DNA from: Sinorhizobium fredii NGR234 | GTDB taxonomy: Bacteria > Pseudomonadota > Alphaproteobacteria > Rhizobiales > Rhizobiaceae | DNA: 64,000 nt | NCBI RefSeq assembly: GCF_000018545.1 | Contig: NC_012586.1 | Location: 1,364,001-1,428,000 of the forward strand | Reading direction: 5' to 3' | Shown: piece by piece, positions 20,097 through 40,992 of the stretch | Position numbering within the stretch: the stretch's first letter is position 1 | Layout of the letters: every line of letters begins with the position of its first letter | The notes under the pieces: generated by a model | Seen by the model: only the letters and a program-made list of their open reading frames with translations | Database searches by the model: none | Told to the model about the DNA's origin: nothing | Translations under genes and position numbers: made by a program

Positions 20097-21641
20097 CCCT
20101 TCTCATGCGGTTCTTAGGATGCTCGACGTGGGTCGCGCGACGTGAAGCGTGGCGGAACGTGGCGTGCACCATGGGCGACGGCCCGAATTGGCGTAGCCTT
20201 CCTGAACCGAGCCGATTCGTCGGCCTCGAGCACCTGGGGGGACACGTGCCCCGTCGGATTGGCCGTGATCGATGCCGCGTGGGGAGTTCGCGCCGGACCT
20301 GTGCTTTTCCGAGCGCCAGTACAGGGATCGGCGAAGATCGCGGTGGCTCGTATGCTCGAACGGGGAGAAGGCATGACTGATCAAAGACATTGTTACGCTG
20401 GCGTCGACTGGGCGTCGGAGAGCCATCATGTGTTCCTCACGGACGGCAATGGCCGAAAAATCGGCGAAAGGGTCTTCAGGCACGGCGGCGAAGGGCTCGC
20501 CGAAATGGCGGCCTGGCTGATGGCGGCGAGCGGCGCGGTTGAGGGGGACGAAATCCAGGACGCAATCTAGGTGCCGCACGGCCCCGTGGTCGAGACGCTG
20601 ATTGAGCGCGGGTTCAGGTGCATGCCATTAATCCAAAGCAAATGGATCGTTTCCGCGACCGCTTCACCCTGGCGGTGCCAAGGACGACAGCCGCGATGCC
20701 GAGGTGATGGCTTCCGCCCTGCGCACCGATCCGCGTTGCTTTCGGTTGCTCGCGGTCTCCGACCCCGTCGTCATCGAATTGCGCGAGTGGTCGCGCATCG
20801 CCGAAGACCTCAGCGCCGAGCGCAACCGTTTGACGAACCGTATGCGCGAGCAGCTCTGGCGCTACTTCCCCGCACTGCTTGAGCTCGAAAACGACCTCGG
20901 GGCAGAGTGGTTGCTCGATCTCTGGGACACCGTGCCGACGCCGGACAAAGCCGCGCGCATCCGCGAGGCGACGATCGCCAAGCTTCTCAAGCGCCATCGC
21001 ATCCGCCGCTTCGACGCCCCCCCTGTGCTCGATACATTGCGCGCGCCCGCTCAAGGTCGCCGCCGGAACCGACGAATCCGCCAGCGCCCACGTCACCACG
21101 CTCATTGCCTGCATCCGCCTCGTCAACCGGCAGCTCAAACAGGCGCATCATCGGCTCGATGGCCTGACCGCCAGCCTCATCGCAACCGCGCAGGTGGAGC
21201 CGGGGCAGAAGAAGCAGCATGACGTGGAGATCCTCGCATCCTTGCCGGGAGTGGGAAGGGTTGTCCTCGCCACGCTGCTCGCAGAAGCGTTCGATGCCCT
21301 GCAGCGACGTGACTACGCCGCCTTGCGCAGCTTGACAGGAGTCGCGCCGGTCACCAAGCGCTCGGGCAAGAGCTGCATCGTCGTCAGAAGACAGGCCTGC
21401 CATGACCGACTGGCCAACGCCATGTACCATTGGGCGCGCGTCGCCGTTCAACACGACCTCACAAGCCATTTGAAATACGCCGCCCTTCGAAGCCGAGGTC
21501 ACAGCCACGGTCGCGTCCTGCGATCAGTCGCCGACCGCCTCCTCGCCGTCGCCTGCGCCATGCTCAAAACTGGCACCACCTTCGACCCCTCTCTGGCCGC
21601 TCAAAAATCCGCTTGTTAAACGGTGGGAAGTCCCCCCGACA
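20097..21641 (+). mobile_element. Decayed IS110-family element inserted in an IS630 transposase gene
   Basis: The boundaries are estimated from where IS630 transposase homology stops on each side: KDLVQW ends near 20090 and IPAIHGVV resumes near 21641. TACC occurs at both junctions (20095-20098 and 21642-21645). The element would be about 1.5 kb, the usual IS110 size, with a long 5' non-coding leader (about 275 bases) and a very short 3' end. IS110 elements lack terminal inverted repeats, so exact ends need comparison with intact copies. Confidence 0.65.
20373..21619 (+). pseudogene. IS110-family (DEDD) transposase, broken
   Basis: The frame opens with an ATG at 20373 and reads YAGVDWASESHHVFLTDGNG, the first aspartate of the DEDD RNase H-like domain. 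It meets a TAG at 20568-20570, continues as VPHGPVVETLIERGF, then shifts near 20617 and 20678 (each consistent with loss of one G) and again near 21050. The C-terminal part, from VAAGTDESASAH to [11 protein letters not shown], carries the IS110 domain SLPGVGRVVLATLLAEAFDA. At least one nonsense and three frameshift changes make it inactive. It is different from the intact IS110 transposase at 37744. Confidence 0.85.
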
Positions 21642-36188: not shown

Positions 36189-37523
36189 CTACGCCTCATC
36201 CGTCAGCGATTTCTTGTCGAGGCCTAGCTTCTGCATCTTCTCGTAAAGCGTCTTGCGTGAGATGCCGAGCGATTCATAGACCGGCTTCAGTGCGCCGCCA
36301 TGCGCCGCGATCGCACTGGCGATGACGCTTTTTTCGAAAGCCGCGACCCTGTCGGCGAGGCGCAAGCCGTTTGCCGGCGAGGCTGCATCGGTTTCCAGCC
36401 CGAGCACCAGGCGCTCGGCCGCATTGCGCAGTTCGCGGACGTTGCCTGGCCAATCGCGGGTTGCCATTTCAGAGGCGAGCGTCGGCGAGATCTCGATGTC
36501 ATCGCGGCCATAGCGGGCGGCGGATTCTCGCACGAGCTGCATGAAGAGCAACGGGATATCGGAGCGACGCTCCGCCAGAGACGGGACGCGCAGCGTCGCG
36601 ACGTTCAGTCGATAGAGCAGGTCGGCGCGGAAGCGTCCCGCGGCGACCTCCGGCTCCAGTTCCAGCTTGCTGGTCGCGATGAAGCGTACGTCGAGCGGCA
36701 CGTGTTCGTTCGAGCCGAGCCGGGTTATCACCCTTTCCTGCAGCACGCGCAGGAATTTCGCCTGGAGATCGACAGGCATCGAGCCGATTTCGTCGAGCAG
36801 GATCGTGCCGCCGCGCCCGTGCTCGAACTTGCCGTAGCGTGGCCTGAGCGCACCCGGAAAGGCTCCGGGCTCATGGCCGAAGAGCTCGCTTTCGATCAGG
36901 TTCTCGGGGAGTGCGGCGCAGTTGATGGCGATGAAAGGGCTGTTTGCCCGGCTGCTCAGATCATGGAGGGCGCGGGCGACGACTTCCTTGCCGGCGCCGG
37001 TATCGCCGATGATCAGCGTGTCGGCGTCCGATGCGCCGATGGCGCGCACCCGGTAGCGCAGGTCGACCATGACCTGGCTTCGTCCGGGCAAGCGCTGCTC
37101 GATGTCGTCGCGTTTTCCGGCGACGGCCCGCAAGCGTCGGTTTTCGAGCACGAGGCCACGCCAGTCGAGGGCGCGCCGGATGGTGCCGGCGAGCGCCTGC
37201 GCCGTAAAAGGTTTCTCGACGAAGTCGTAGGCGCCCTCGCGCATCGCCCGCACGGCCAGTTGGACGTCGCCATGCCCGGTCACCAGGATCACCGGAACTT
37301 CCGGGTCGATCTCGCGGATCCGCTGCAGGAAGGTCATACCGTCCATGCCCGGCATGCGGATATCGCTGATGACGACGCCGGAAAAGCTGAAGCTGATGAA
37401 TTCGAGCGCCCGCTCGGCGCTGGCGAAGGTATCGACGCGGAAGCCGGCAAGCTCCAGCGCCTGCGCGCTCGAGCGACGAAGCTCCTCCTCGTCGTCGACA
37501 AGCAGGACGCGGCTTTCACTCAT
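36189..37523 (-). CDS. DctD-like NtrC-family response regulator with GAFPGA variant
   Basis: The 444-residue protein has a receiver (phosphorylated D54 in VVISDIRMPGMDG), an AAA+ domain (Walker A GDTGAGKEV, Walker B GGTILLDEI, arginine finger region FRADLLYRLN) and a Fis-type DNA-binding end (LGISRKTLYEKMQKLGL). It resembles DctD, which switches on sigma-54 promoters for C4-dicarboxylate transport. The loop that touches sigma-54 reads GAFPGA (220-225) instead of GAFTGA; the CCG codon is at 36855-36857. AAGGCGGA precedes the start. Its partner kinase gene lies upstream beyond an IS110 insertion. No dctA is in the window, so the target is unknown. Confidence 0.85.
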   Translation of the reverse strand: MSESRVLLVDDEEELRRSSAQALELAGFRVDTFASAERALEFISFSFSGVVISDIRMPGMDGMTFLQRIREIDPEVPVILVTGHGDVQLAVRAMREGAYDFVEKPFTAQALAGTIRRALDWRGLVLENRRLRAVAGKRDDIEQRLPGRSQVMVDLRYRVRAIGASDADTLIIGDTGAGKEVVARALHDLSSRANSPFIAINCAALPENLIESELFGHEPGAFPGALRPRYGKFEHGRGGTILLDEIGSMPVDLQAKFLRVLQERVITRLGSNEHVPLDVRFIATSKLELEPEVAAGRFRADLLYRLNVATLRVPSLAERRSDIPLLFMQLVRESAARYGRDDIEISPTLASEMATRDWPGNVRELRNAAERLVLGLETDAASPANGLRLADRVAAFEKSVIASAIAAHGGALKPVYESLGISRKTLYEKMQKLGLDKKSLTDEA

Positions 37524-37543
37524 TCCGCCTTACCCCTTTTCAT

Positions 37544-37743
37544 AGTGCCTACTGCGGTGCGAAGCTGCTTAGGCGCAGGTGATGCGGGTATGGTTGTCAT
37601 TCTGGCTGTCCTTGATGGCTCCGGCGGCTGAGCCGCCCGCTTCACCGACCTGGATCGACCGCTGATTGCTCGATGCCCGCGATGGCTATGTAAGGCGATG
37701 TCGGCGTGTCCGGGCCTGCGCGGTCGCCACGTCATGCGAGGTC
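37544..37743 (+). ncRNA. Candidate bridge RNA region of the IS110-family element
   Basis: IS110-group elements are known to make a structured bridge RNA from the non-coding DNA ahead of the transposase; its two loops pair with donor and target DNA. This leader fits by position and size. It contains a perfect GGCGGC-TGA-GCCGCC hairpin (37623-37637) and further pairable blocks (GGCGA near 37695 with TCGCC near 37730). No expression or loop-target pairing has been shown here. Confidence 0.4.
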
Positions 37744-38922
37744 ATGGAGATTTACGTTGGAATAGATGTTGCCAAGGAAACCCATTGGGCCTGCGCTCTC
37801 GATGCGCGCGCGCAGGTTCTGCTCGACCGCGCGGTCGATAACGATCAGGCCGCGATCGAGCGCTTCGTCGCCGACCTGCGCGGCCTCGGCGGCGATGTCG
37901 TGGTCGGGCTGGACATCACCGGATCGCTGGCGCGCTTCCTGGAGGCCATCCTCCTGGCCGAGGGGTTGCGTCTCGTCCATGTGCCCGGCATCGCCGTCAA
38001 CCGGGCCGGACAGGGCTTTCCCGGCGGAGAGAGCAAGTCCGACCCGCGCGATGCGCGCACCATCGCCGAGCTGGTCCGGACGCGTGATCTGCGCCCGATC
38101 CTGCCAGACGACGAGACCGCCATCGCACTGCGCCTCAAAGTCACGCGACGCCGCGAACTCAGCGACGACCAGACGCGCCGCATCTCCCGCATGCGCCAGC
38201 TCCTGGGCGCTATCCACCCCGGCCTCGAACGCCGGCTCGACCTGACGGCCAAGGGACCGCTCGTCCTTGTCACCCGCTACGTCACGCCGACCGAGATCCG
38301 CCGGGCCGGCCTCAAACGGCTCATGGCGCATCTCAAGCGAACACCTCACCTGCACGCCGTCGAGGCACTGGCCCAACGCGCCCTCGAAGCCGCCGAGGGC
38401 CAGAGCATCGCCGTTCCCGGCGAGGCCAGCTTCGCCGACATGATCCGCGAGCTCGCCGCTGAGGCCCTGCGGGCGCGCGAGGCGATCGCCCGCATCGACC
38501 GCGACTTGGAGGCCCTGCTCGAGCGCCACCCTGACGGCGCCCTCATCCGCTCGCTGCCGGGGATGGGGGCTGTGCTGTCGGCAGAACTCATCGCCAACAT
38601 CGGCACCATCGAGCGATTCCACTCGGCCGACGCCCTGGCCAGCGCCGCAGGCCTGACCCCCGTCATCCGCCAATCCGGAAAATCCAGGAACTGGCGCCGC
38701 GCATTTGGCGGCGACAAGGCCCTCAAGCGGGTATTCTTCCAGAGTGCCTTCTGCGCCGTCTCTACCAGAGACCCGCTCTCCAAAGCCTTCTACGACCGAA
38801 AACGGCGAGAGGGAAAACATCACACCCAGGCCATCATCGCCTTGGCCCGCCGACGCGTCACCGTCCTGTGGACAATGCTCCGGACCAGGCAAACCTTCGA
38901 TCCAACTCAAAAAGCCGCTTGA
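37744..38922 (+). CDS. IS110-family (DEDD) transposase, apparently intact
   Basis: The 392-residue recombinase starts MEIYVGIDVAKETHWACALD, giving the first aspartate of the RuvC-like DEDD domain. SKSDPRDARTIAELV carries a later acidic site, and the C-terminal half has RSLPGMGAVLSAELIANIGT and SAAGLTPVIRQSGKS, the conserved IS110 part that includes the serine nucleophile region. No stop or frameshift interrupts it, so it may be active. The ATG at 37744 gives the natural N-terminus; the upstream extension to 37666 lies in the leader. It is not a close copy of the broken IS110 transposase at 20373. Confidence 0.92.
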   Translation: MEIYVGIDVAKETHWACALDARAQVLLDRAVDNDQAAIERFVADLRGLGGDVVVGLDITGSLARFLEAILLAEGLRLVHVPGIAVNRAGQGFPGGESKSDPRDARTIAELVRTRDLRPILPDDETAIALRLKVTRRRELSDDQTRRISRMRQLLGAIHPGLERRLDLTAKGPLVLVTRYVTPTEIRRAGLKRLMAHLKRTPHLHAVEALAQRALEAAEGQSIAVPGEASFADMIRELAAEALRAREAIARIDRDLEALLERHPDGALIRSLPGMGAVLSAELIANIGTIERFHSADALASAAGLTPVIRQSGKSRNWRRAFGGDKALKRVFFQSAFCAVSTRDPLSKAFYDRKRREGKHHTQAIIALARRRVTVLWTMLRTRQTFDPTQKAA

Positions 38923-38930
38923 CTTGCGCA

Positions 38931-40757
38931 TTACTCAGCCGCCTCCCGCTCGGATTCCGGAACGGCGACAAGTTCGATGCGGAACACCGCTCCTCCTTCG
39001 GCATGGTTCGCCACCGTCAGGCTGCCGCCGAAATCCTTGACGATGTTGTAGGAAATGGAAAGGCCGAGCCCCAGGCCCTTGCCCACGCCCTTTGTCGTGT
39101 AGAAGGGGTCGAAGATGCGCTCTGCGATGGCGGGCGGCACCCCAGGGCCGCGGTCGCGCACGGTTATTACCGCCCTGTCATCCTCGCGCCAGGCACGCAC
39201 CAGGATCATACGATCCTCGAGGCCTTCGACGGCATCGGCGGCATTGGAGATGACGTTGACGAGCACCTGCTGCAGCCGTACCGAACCGGCCCGCACGATC
39301 AGCGGCTCGGAACCGAGATCGATATCGATTGCCGCGTTCGCCGTCTTCAACCGCGTCGCGACGATCTCCATCGTATCGTGCATCACGTCTTCGACCGGAA
39401 CGGCGCCGAGCTTTTCATTCGGCTTGCGCGCGAAGTTGCGCAGATGCCGGCTGATCGCCGCCATGCGGTCGATGAGGCCGGAGATGCGCCTGACATTGTC
39501 GCTCGCTTCGTTCGTTCGCCCCCGCTCGATCAAAAGTGCCGCGCTGTCGGCATAGGTCTTGGCGGCGGCGAGCGGCTGGTTGAACTCATGCGAAAGGGCG
39601 GCCGACATCTGGCCGAGCCCCGCGAGCTTGCCGGCCTGGACGAGATCCGCCTGCGTCTGGCGCAATTGCTGCTCGGTAAGCCGCCGTTCGGCGATCTCCG
39701 CCTCGATCTGCACGTTGACGCGAGCAAGATCGGCGGTGCGCTCCTCGACCCGGCGCTCCAGTTCCTCCTGCGCCTGCTCCTGCATCAGTATACGCTCGCG
39801 CAGCCGCGCCCGTCGCTGGATGAGGATGGCGACCGCCAATCCGGCCAGACAGAGCAACAGGATGGCGGCCGCGACCGTGGTCAGCGCTTGGGTCCTGACC
39901 GAGGCCGTGTCGGTCAGGACGTTCACCGTCCAGTCGGCGTCCGGCATGTAGTGCGAGAGGACCAGGTATTCCCGGGCGTTGTCGCGGCCCGAAACGGTCA
40001 TCAAGGCGTGGCCGTCAACCTCGCGGCGAGCGACCGGCAAGGGGTGGAGGATGGCATTGGCATAGCGCCGCGAAGCTTCCGTCCGGGCAAGGCGCTCGGG
40101 CGTCAAGGGCAGGATGCCGGCGTAGAGCCATTCCGGGTTTCCGCTCATGAAGATGATGCCTTCCGGATCGGAAACGAAGATCCTGTACTCGCCGCCCTGC
40201 CAGGAGGATTCGATGGTCTCGATATCGACCTTGAAGACGATGACACCGCGGATTTCGTCGCCGACGCGCACGGGCGAGCCGAAATAATAGCCCCGCTTCA
40301 GAGAGGTCGTGCCGAGCGCATAGAAGCGGGACTGCTCCCCCTTGAGCGCATCCTGGAAATAGGGGCGGTAGCTGAAATTCTGGCCGACAAAGCTTGCGGG
40401 CCCGTCGTAGTTGCTGGCGGCGATCGTGTCGCCATCCGGTGTGATGACGTAGATGTCTGAGGATTTCAGCAGCCCGTTGATGTCTTTCAGATAACCGTTG
40501 ACGGCGTCGCGCAACCGTCGATCCCGAGGGCGGGTCACGATCTCCTTGATATCGTCATGATCGGCGATGAGAGCGGGCAGCGCCTGATAACGATTGAGGT
40601 GGCCGCTGAGTGCGGCGACGGACAGCCTGAGGGCCGTATTCGCCTGCGCCGAGGCTTCCTGCATATAGCTGCGGGTGGCGACGACATTCCCCTGCACGGC
40701 GAGCATCACGACGGCGGCCGGCAGGACCAACAACATAAACAGGAAACGGTATTTCAC
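38931..40757 (-). CDS. DctB-like sensor histidine kinase
   Basis: The protein is about 608 residues from a GTG at 40757. It has a first membrane segment (FMLLVLPAAVVMLAVQ), a periplasmic double-PAS/dCache-like sensor (SSDIYVITPDGDTIAASNYD, FSYRPYFQDALKG), a second membrane segment (AAAILLLCLAGLAVAILI), a coiled linker and a kinase core. The core shows the H-box SHEFNQPLAAAKTYAD, N-box NVISNAADAV, RDRGPGVP and GKGLGLGLSIS. This is the DctB layout, sensing C4-dicarboxylates or similar acids. Longer in-frame starts reach 40940 but lack a sensor signal. Its regulator gene is downstream but separated by the IS110 element. Confidence 0.85.
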   Translation of the reverse strand: MKYRFLFMLLVLPAAVVMLAVQGNVVATRSYMQEASAQANTALRLSVAALSGHLNRYQALPALIADHDDIKEIVTRPRDRRLRDAVNGYLKDINGLLKSSDIYVITPDGDTIAASNYDGPASFVGQNFSYRPYFQDALKGEQSRFYALGTTSLKRGYYFGSPVRVGDEIRGVIVFKVDIETIESSWQGGEYRIFVSDPEGIIFMSGNPEWLYAGILPLTPERLARTEASRRYANAILHPLPVARREVDGHALMTVSGRDNAREYLVLSHYMPDADWTVNVLTDTASVRTQALTTVAAAILLLCLAGLAVAILIQRRARLRERILMQEQAQEELERRVEERTADLARVNVQIEAEIAERRLTEQQLRQTQADLVQAGKLAGLGQMSAALSHEFNQPLAAAKTYADSAALLIERGRTNEASDNVRRISGLIDRMAAISRHLRNFARKPNEKLGAVPVEDVMHDTMEIVATRLKTANAAIDIDLGSEPLIVRAGSVRLQQVLVNVISNAADAVEGLEDRMILVRAWREDDRAVITVRDRGPGVPPAIAERIFDPFYTTKGVGKGLGLGLSISYNIVKDFGGSLTVANHAEGGAVFRIELVAVPESEREAAE

Positions 40758-40875
40758 GGTATGCCCGGGCTCCTCCTCCCGCGCGCTTAACGAGCGGTTC
40801 GGATCGTAAGAGCCCGCTCGACTCGTGGCAAGCCGCCTATGAACTTCGTCCGAAGATAAACGATTGCCTATGGGC

Positions 40876-40892
40876 GTCAACGAAACGTTGAC
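40876..40892. promoter_or_regulatory. 17-bp palindrome GTCAACG-AAA-CGTTGAC
   Basis: The perfect inverted repeat lies in the spacer between the dctB-like gene (119 bases away) and the MhqO-like gene (101 bases away), which are divergent. It has the form of a dimeric repressor site. MarR-type regulators control MhqO/MhqD-like genes in other bacteria, and such a protein may bind here, but none is encoded next to it. Confidence 0.5.
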
Positions 40893-40992
40893 AATGCGTT
40901 TGTTGGCGCTGGCCTTTCGCGCTTGGCCGGAAGAGAGCATCTATCCGGGCATCGACAAGCCCGAAGACAAACGGGCAGAAAGGCAGCGACAA

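Follow-up and report, generated by a model that had tools for sequence, protein, structure and literature searches.

A predicted bridge RNA of an IS110-group element in Sinorhizobium fredii NGR234 matches a translation-initiation junction inside a dct-like operon

Bridge-RNA elements of the IS110 group are established (PMC11208160, PMC11208158 and PMC11187229), and PMC11208160 reports that IS110 circles form a promoter at the circle junction. The nearest precedent for the element described here is IS900, an IS110-family member of Mycobacterium avium subsp. paratuberculosis, for which PMC8141618 reports CATGNNNNNNTCTCCTT as the motif targeted and describes hed, an ORF whose function is unknown and which spans the element on the other strand. 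We read the motif as a start codon plus the complement of a Shine-Dalgarno (SD) sequence, and the likeness to the present element lies in the translation-signal target and, for 17 of 25 clade copies but only in part for the copy described here, in a spanning antisense frame.

We analyzed a window of 64,000 nucleotides from Sinorhizobium fredii NGR234 (NC_012586.1, positions 1,364,001 to 1,428,000; host genome of 6.89 Mb in three contigs), in which an element of this IS900/bridge-RNA kind lies between a dctB-like and a dctD-like gene. It is set apart by its target and by a putative relay of translation across the element. In contrast to IS900, the element described here targets the point where the stop of one operon gene overlaps the start of the next, its right end gives a stop codon to the upstream gene and an ATG to an antisense frame that usually ends at a host TGA, the predicted bridge RNA is tied to parts of the target by covariation, and the hosts are mostly alphaproteobacteria. 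The recombinase is 39% identical to that of an M. avium relative (L076), which stands in for IS900 in this comparison and is not IS900 itself.

The element belongs to the IS110 group. Its recombinase gene (37744-38922, plus strand), found in the ORF listing, encodes an intact frame of 392 aa that scores 228.9 bits against NCBIfam NF033542 (cut-off 140), 125.1 bits against Pfam PF01548 (DEDD, RuvC-like) and 75.5 bits against PF02371 (Transposase_20), and it matches the solved structures of ISCro4 (1.8e-16) and IS621 (1.2e-15), so that the uninterrupted DEDD transposase frame noticed in a preliminary description of this DNA is borne out. The second acidic residue of the catalytic motif is Asp in the 14 aligned sequences here, a difference from IS621. 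Elsewhere in the window, positions 21206-21595 hold a partial IS110-like match with 32% identity to the C-terminal part of the recombinase, in an open frame of 261 aa (L017), and contig C3 of the same genome carries nine copies of a second IS110-like family (L003-L011; residues 2-388, about 27% identity).

Relatives were gathered as 31 loci from genome contigs and 64 plasmid records. Close relatives are sparse: with the own genome counted, a search at E 1e-120 finds them in 4 of the 297 genomes of the family, and one at 1e-100 in 1 of 397 order genomes and 2 of 385 class genomes. Ends were found with the motifs GCC[CTG]TACC (left) and TGAC-N(3-6)-CATTA[CG] (right), so the tabulated right ends were located by a motif that itself includes CATTA[CG]; L039, L036 and L049 were placed by hand. 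A near-identical second copy in NGR234 (G000:C2:442651-444067) differs at two bases within the element (37570 and 37905) and, because it adjoins different genes, allows the ends to be read from two insertions. The stretch common to both copies (37520-38944) is longer than the element, and the agreement of the core between the ends across relatives, together with empty sites, sets the limits at 37524-38934 (plus strand; 1411 bp, left core through the base before the right core), which corrects the earlier 37544-38930. The core dinucleotide TC stands at 37524-37525, again at 38935-38936 and in the empty site; otherwise, there is no target-site duplication. Lineages fall into those with a TC core and those with a GC core, and left and right ends agree (TC/TC in the window and L038, GC/GC in L041 and L024), with the exceptions of L045 (TT/TC), L044 (GC/CC), L039, whose left end is partly missing, and L049, first read as AG/GC and later re-read as a copy without one left-end base. 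In L039, the copy of R. mesoamericanum, four bases beside the core are missing at the left end. We had considered a core CAT duplicated at both ends, which was rejected in favor of TC/GC on the evidence of the nearest empty site, L030, and of left and right ends that agree in T or G; a reading of the target as TAATGA fell with it, as it rested on the wrong CAT core, which made the right-end CATTAC look like target. The near-identical copy and the empty sites in near relatives make recent mobility of the element probable, which lends support to the earlier suggestion that it may be active.

As previously described, a dctB-like and a dctD-like gene flank the element, both on the minus strand. 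The upstream gene (38931-40940), delimited from the ORF listing, domain profiles and empty sites, resembles a sensor kinase and receives its TAA from the element; the downstream gene (36189-37523) resembles a sigma-54 response regulator by domain profiles and a PDB match. Both ORFs are complete after insertion. The DctD receiver match reaches 149.5 bits and the DctB sensor match 107.8 bits, and for each of the two genes another PDB entry scores higher. We call the pair no more than dct-like. Among the matches listed, the best plasmid matches of the dctD-like gene are from S. fredii.

The preliminary description had the two genes rejoin with a 20-base spacer once the element is removed, and it named strains with an empty site and a different spacer as counting against its reading. 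Such strains were found: the genes overlap in all 13 element-free relatives read (13 of the 20 records listed, among 287 matching records), with GAATGA (4-nt overlap, ATGA) in 11 and GAGTAATG (1-nt overlap) in 2. The 20 bases belong to the element, since the spacer appears only when bases of its own ends are counted as host. The empty site of S. fredii GR64 (L030), CACTCAT-TC-AGCCGCCTCCCG, agrees letter for letter with the prediction made from the corrected ends. At the second insertion site, relative G1072 reads GCGAAATGACC, likewise with an ATGA overlap; among the seven loci read for this check, L079 alone was clearly informative, stop and start are apart in the distant L081, and the remaining loci were paralogs or not alignable.

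The two deviating junctions belong to S. americanum CCGM7 and CFNEI 73 (L031 and L143), which read GAGTAATGAGC in place of the GAATGA of the other 11. The three extra bases are the remainder expected if a copy were lost between the right-end AATG and the left-junction AATG, and elsewhere these strains have stretches that match part of a related element (L035, L037); the junction is a possible excision footprint.

A leader of 220 bases precedes the recombinase gene in the window's copy. The preliminary description saw a structured leader of 200 bases there and proposed that it encodes a bridge RNA. Folded alone, the leader does not stand out (z -0.60, a value equalled by 52 of 200 shuffles), and Rfam gave no match at gathering level in the window and one chance match otherwise. 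Of 23 leaders extracted from relatives, 21 were aligned, and these yield a consensus with two loops, in which 95.5% of 441 cells are paired over 21 tested pairs (0 of 500 shuffles equal this) and 13 pairs have changed on both sides (65 cells). The structure thus rests on covariation, as the single-sequence fold carries no signal. The target-binding loop (37580-37644, plus strand, like all leader features) is closed by a stem of 37580-37588 with 37636-37644, in which 7 of 9 pairs changed on both sides and 97.9% of cells are paired. By its match to the target, GUCAU-UC at 37596-37602 is the predicted left target guide (LTG), and GGCGGCUGAG at 37623-37632, complementary to TC-AGCCGCC and covarying with the target, the right target guide (RTG). 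Consensus and covariation likewise delimit the donor-binding loop (37649-37714; stem 37649-37660 with 37703-37714, hairpin 37675-37677/37684-37686), which holds a left donor guide (LDG; GAUUGC-UC, 37664-37671) in the same sense as the right end CATTAC-TC with one G for A, and a right donor guide (RDG; GUAAGGCGAUG, 37690-37700) complementary to the left end CGCCTTAC.

The RTG tracks the target across relatives, as seen in the target/guide pairs AGCCGCC/GGCGGCU, AGCCCTC/GAGGGCU, AGCCACC/GGUGGCU and TGCCTCC/GGAGGCA. Over 16 distinct combinations out of 20 rows, 120 of 128 positions pair (wobbles allowed) against 100.0 for shuffled partners, and none of 20,000 shuffles was as good. The other guides match well, yet vary too little for strong covariation tests: the LTG pairs at 64 of 77 positions (759 of 20,000 shuffles as good; L049, out of register, scored 0/7), the LDG at 39 of 42 (1947 of 20,000) and the RDG at 61 of 64 (338 of 20,000; L049 left out). 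These data support a predicted bridge RNA encoded in the leader, with guides for target and donor alike, as the preliminary description had expected from a comparison of loops with junctions. Its further suggestion that the element may be reprogrammable finds support only insofar as the guides of natural relatives differ and fit targets that differ with them.

The four guides are positioned as in the IS621 scheme set out in the available parts of PMC11208160 and PMC11208158. As there, the leader lies upstream of the recombinase gene, the target loop comes before the donor loop, LTG and LDG are in top-strand sense, RTG and RDG are complementary, the core is included, and a circle-junction promoter is predicted. 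The present elements differ from IS621 in a core of TC or GC in place of CT, and in targeting a translation-initiation junction where IS621 targets REP elements. They also resemble the seekRNA systems of IS1111/IS110, in which a non-coding RNA picks the target and an IS110 member has its seekRNA upstream of tnp; gene-junction targeting is not seen there, as far as the available text of PMC11187229 goes.

Joining of the ends in a circle (38919-38934 to 37524-37560) would place TTGACT (38919-38924), which overlaps the recombinase stop and belongs to a TTGAC recurring in right ends, 17 nt from TACCCC (37531-37536, a weak match), both on the plus strand. We take these by promoter consensus to be a possible -35 and -10, which would form a weak promoter-like pair spanning the core.

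On the operon strand, the dctB/dctD target reads GGGAGGCGGCT-GA-ATGAG and thus comprises the SD stretch, the last codons, the stop/start overlap and the start codon. The left target flank CACTCAT (37517-37523, plus strand), identified by the empty site and the guide match, is the ATGAG start of dctD on the minus strand; the right target flank (38937-38947, minus strand GGGAGGCGGCT), identified by anti-SD pairing and empty-site junctions, is the end of dctB with the native SD stretch of dctD. The SD of dctD is strong (-10.6 kcal/mol). Over 20 sites, the native 22 nt pair with the anti-SD at a mean of -8.45 kcal/mol against -3.29 for random 22-mers; 12 sites fall within the strongest 5% of random 22-mers, and 5 are at -5.2 or weaker.

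The left junction is ATGA or GTGA in 26 of the 28 copies having both ends. This set leaves out L022 (genome and site of L038), the left-only L035 and L036, nine right-only loci, the fragments L037, L073 and L074, and relatives outside the clade. In 23 of the 28, the upstream ORF lies in the frame ending at that TGA, extends over at least 60 codons and is the longest of three frames; a downstream ORF starts there in 21, and both hold in 19; L055, L040, L044, L054, L024, L025, L027, L049 and L047 fail on one or both sides. With the nine right-only copies added, 7 of which pass, the upstream test is passed by 30 of 37. As to guide-matching sequence, the host genome holds 35 TCATKCAGCC 10-mers (2 for the reversed pattern), and of the 30 examined none passes the two-sided test and 3, counted by eye, pass the upstream test. 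In 33 genomes, 19 unoccupied TCATTCAGCCGCC 13-mers were found, none of them in the host genome, and 7 pass the junction test; the reversed pattern gave 2 sites. Occupied sites exceed these in the upstream test (Fisher, p = 0.002 against 7/19 and p = 4e-9 against 3/30), and in the two-sided test the contrast of 19/28 with 7/19 is weak (p = 0.043). Because sequence that matches the guides is not junction-specific by itself, something beyond guide choice, be it selection or another factor, must contribute, and guide choice and the survival of harmless insertions probably act jointly.

At the right end, CATTAC (38929-38934) reads G-TAA-TG on the minus strand, that is, the last base of a synonymous dctB codon, a stop codon and the ATG of an antisense frame, as judged from the comparison of ends. 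After insertion, the upstream gene ends GA|G TAA, in which Glu is kept, or GC|G or GC|C TAA, in which Ala is kept. TAATG opens a frame on the strand opposite the recombinase. CATTA[CG], which is TAATG on the operon strand, is also what the clade's complete right ends show when loci are anchored by the recombinase and not by the end motif. The left end (37526-37542), which complements the RDG on the donor side, places a purine-rich, SD-like GAAAAGGGGTAAGGCGG before the dctD ATG when read outward on the minus strand. In 17 of 25 copies examined, among them that of Ensifer sp. USDA 6670 (L038), the antisense frame runs through both the recombinase gene and the bridge-RNA leader as far as the host TGA of the downstream start (14 ATGA, 2 GTGA and 1 TTGA). 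Five of the 17 (L024-L028) are near-identical or closely related; the lineages are not independent. In L039, the frame ends 32 nt inside the downstream gene, and it falls short of the downstream gene in seven copies, namely those of the window, L048, L046, L049, L054, L023 and L070, with the recombinase frame shortened in L054 and L070 and shifted in L023. Leader lengths in the 17 full-length copies are 221, 224, 230, 245 and 248 nt, all 2 mod 3, as are 21 of 25 overall. The window's leader of 220 nt is shorter just before the recombinase ATG, and its antisense frame of 399 codons (37732-38931, minus strand; ORF listing and frame reading), which starts in the TAATG shared with dctB, stops at 37732 and leaves 208 nt to the start of dctD; in the second copy, the frame is identical. 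Among actinobacterial relatives outside the clade, the six scored (L050-L053, L058 and L059) lack such a frame, with 5 to 299 codons; L077 was not scorable, and L056 and L060 are not given. The M. avium relative L076 has an antisense frame of 481 codons from right end to left end.

Because the antisense frame lies codon-on-codon with the recombinase gene, only TTA, CTA and TCA codons of the latter would close it. A synonymous-codon shuffle as antisense null was nearly uninformative, since in this layout it cannot create these stops, and was replaced by counts of codon avoidance with host and outside controls. In 12 alphaproteobacterial recombinases of the clade, none of the 633 CTN and TCN codons is CTA or TCA, where the frequency of other A-ending codons in each gene predicts 67.8; the L046 recombinase has one TTA. 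The corresponding counts are 22 of 678 (51.1 expected) in 12 upstream host genes at the same loci and 21 of 529 (54.5 expected) in ten IS110 relatives outside the clade. Fisher tests of the clade gave p = 5e-7 against host genes and p = 5e-8 against outside relatives, values that are optimistic because the lineages share ancestry. All 12 clade genes are free of CTA and TCA, compared with 2 of 12 host genes and 2 of 10 outside relatives. Two actinobacterial clade members kept out of the 633 likewise have none (L075, 0/60; L049, 0/51), and three IS110-like genes of the own genome, outside the pooled ten, have 0/46 (L003), 2/38 (L012) and 1/18 (L017).

These counts bear on the reading that this is an ordinary IS110 insertion, with an antisense frame incidental to high-GC codon bias and neat junctions that are merely the survivors sparing both genes. 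Such a reading fits the avoidance of TTA, CTA and TCA in host genes, which is also apparent (22 CTA and TCA codons where 51 are expected), the absence of both in L003, a gene outside the clade, a guide motif that is not junction-specific, and the expectation that selection would purge gene-disrupting insertions. We nevertheless consider it unlikely, because the comparable controls, 21/529 and 22/678, are not empty as the clade is, the frame is kept through leader lengths from 221 to 248 nt with 21 of 25 copies at 2 mod 3, and the CATTA[CG] right ends recur in listings anchored on the recombinase alone. Still less probable, in our judgment, is that the antisense frame encodes a functional protein. 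This would have parallels in hed, which spans the whole of IS900 on the complementary strand (PMC8141618), and in the 481 codons of L076, and codon identity at conserved residues is indeed above the expectation from usage (0.514 vs 0.435; 0.487 vs 0.430 in the 52 pairs under 60% identity), an excess that could be common ancestry or weak constraint on an antisense protein. At residues with differing synonymous codons, however, the antisense amino acids show no likeness beyond that predicted by codon usage (87 pairs, mean z -0.01, 47 above zero). A frame that stays open while its sequence is not clearly conserved suggests that the trait is translation itself.

The preliminary description further held it probable that regulator and kinase are expressed separately once the element is inserted. 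For the window's copy, this is conceivable but doubtful: with 208 nt between the end of the antisense frame and dctD, some uncoupling is possible, and the untranslated stretch could permit polarity or lost coupling, whereas dctD retains its ATG and gains an SD-like left end with a moderate anti-SD pairing of -7.9 kcal/mol (native, -10.6), and the argument from a 20-base spacer fails as the native genes overlap. Shuffled left ends of the window pair as well as the real one (average -8.1 kcal/mol), and an SD function of the left end thus rests on composition and position only. Across the clade, the ends and the antisense frame look as if built to keep the downstream gene translated.

We therefore favor, and consider likely as a whole, a bridge RNA programmed to the translation-initiation junction inside operons, together with a relay that limits polarity. 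In this proposal, the left target TCAT would be the downstream start ATGA, followed by the core TC or GC, and the right target the 3' end of the upstream gene, often with the SD stretch of the downstream gene. Recombination at the core would divide the ATGA overlap and leave both ORFs undamaged; the right end closes the upstream gene with a synonymous codon and TAA, TAATG gives the ATG of the operon-strand frame, located behind the host's SD, and the left end sets a purine-rich stretch ahead of the downstream ATG. In most relatives examined, the frame then spans the element and halts at the host TGA, restoring the overlap. The ends, core, guide matches, covariation, junction architecture and openness of the frame are legible in the DNA itself; for translation of the frame and its function as a relay, we infer from them that ribosomes from the upstream gene may restart at TAATG, traverse the element and restart at ATGA. 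Such a relay would keep the transcript free of Rho, retain coupling, limit polarity and hide the insertion from selection; in both copies of this genome, it would be truncated.

A broader reading, for and against which we see equal weight, is that the clade evolved to pass as an operon gene, with guides that read the SD and the stop/start overlap, a right end that closes the upstream gene and opens a junk frame, an opposite strand translatable over the full element, including the guide-RNA gene, as far as the ATGA of the next gene, and ribosomes that are relayed across so that polarity is avoided, and that hed of IS900 is a relay and not a protein gene. In the literature covered, which was available in part and had subscription papers and preprints outside its scope, we found no paper that links a bridge RNA to translation signals or hed to a relay. 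The proposal ties together natural bridge-RNA programming, IS900-type landing at translation signals and a possible purpose of long antisense frames like hed, and the natural guide/target pairs are supplied for IS110 engineering. If it is true, translation of the host operon would have shaped the guide, the ends and the non-coding leader of a mobile element that is guided by RNA, and the proposal would give a simple, testable account of near-silent insertion into operons.
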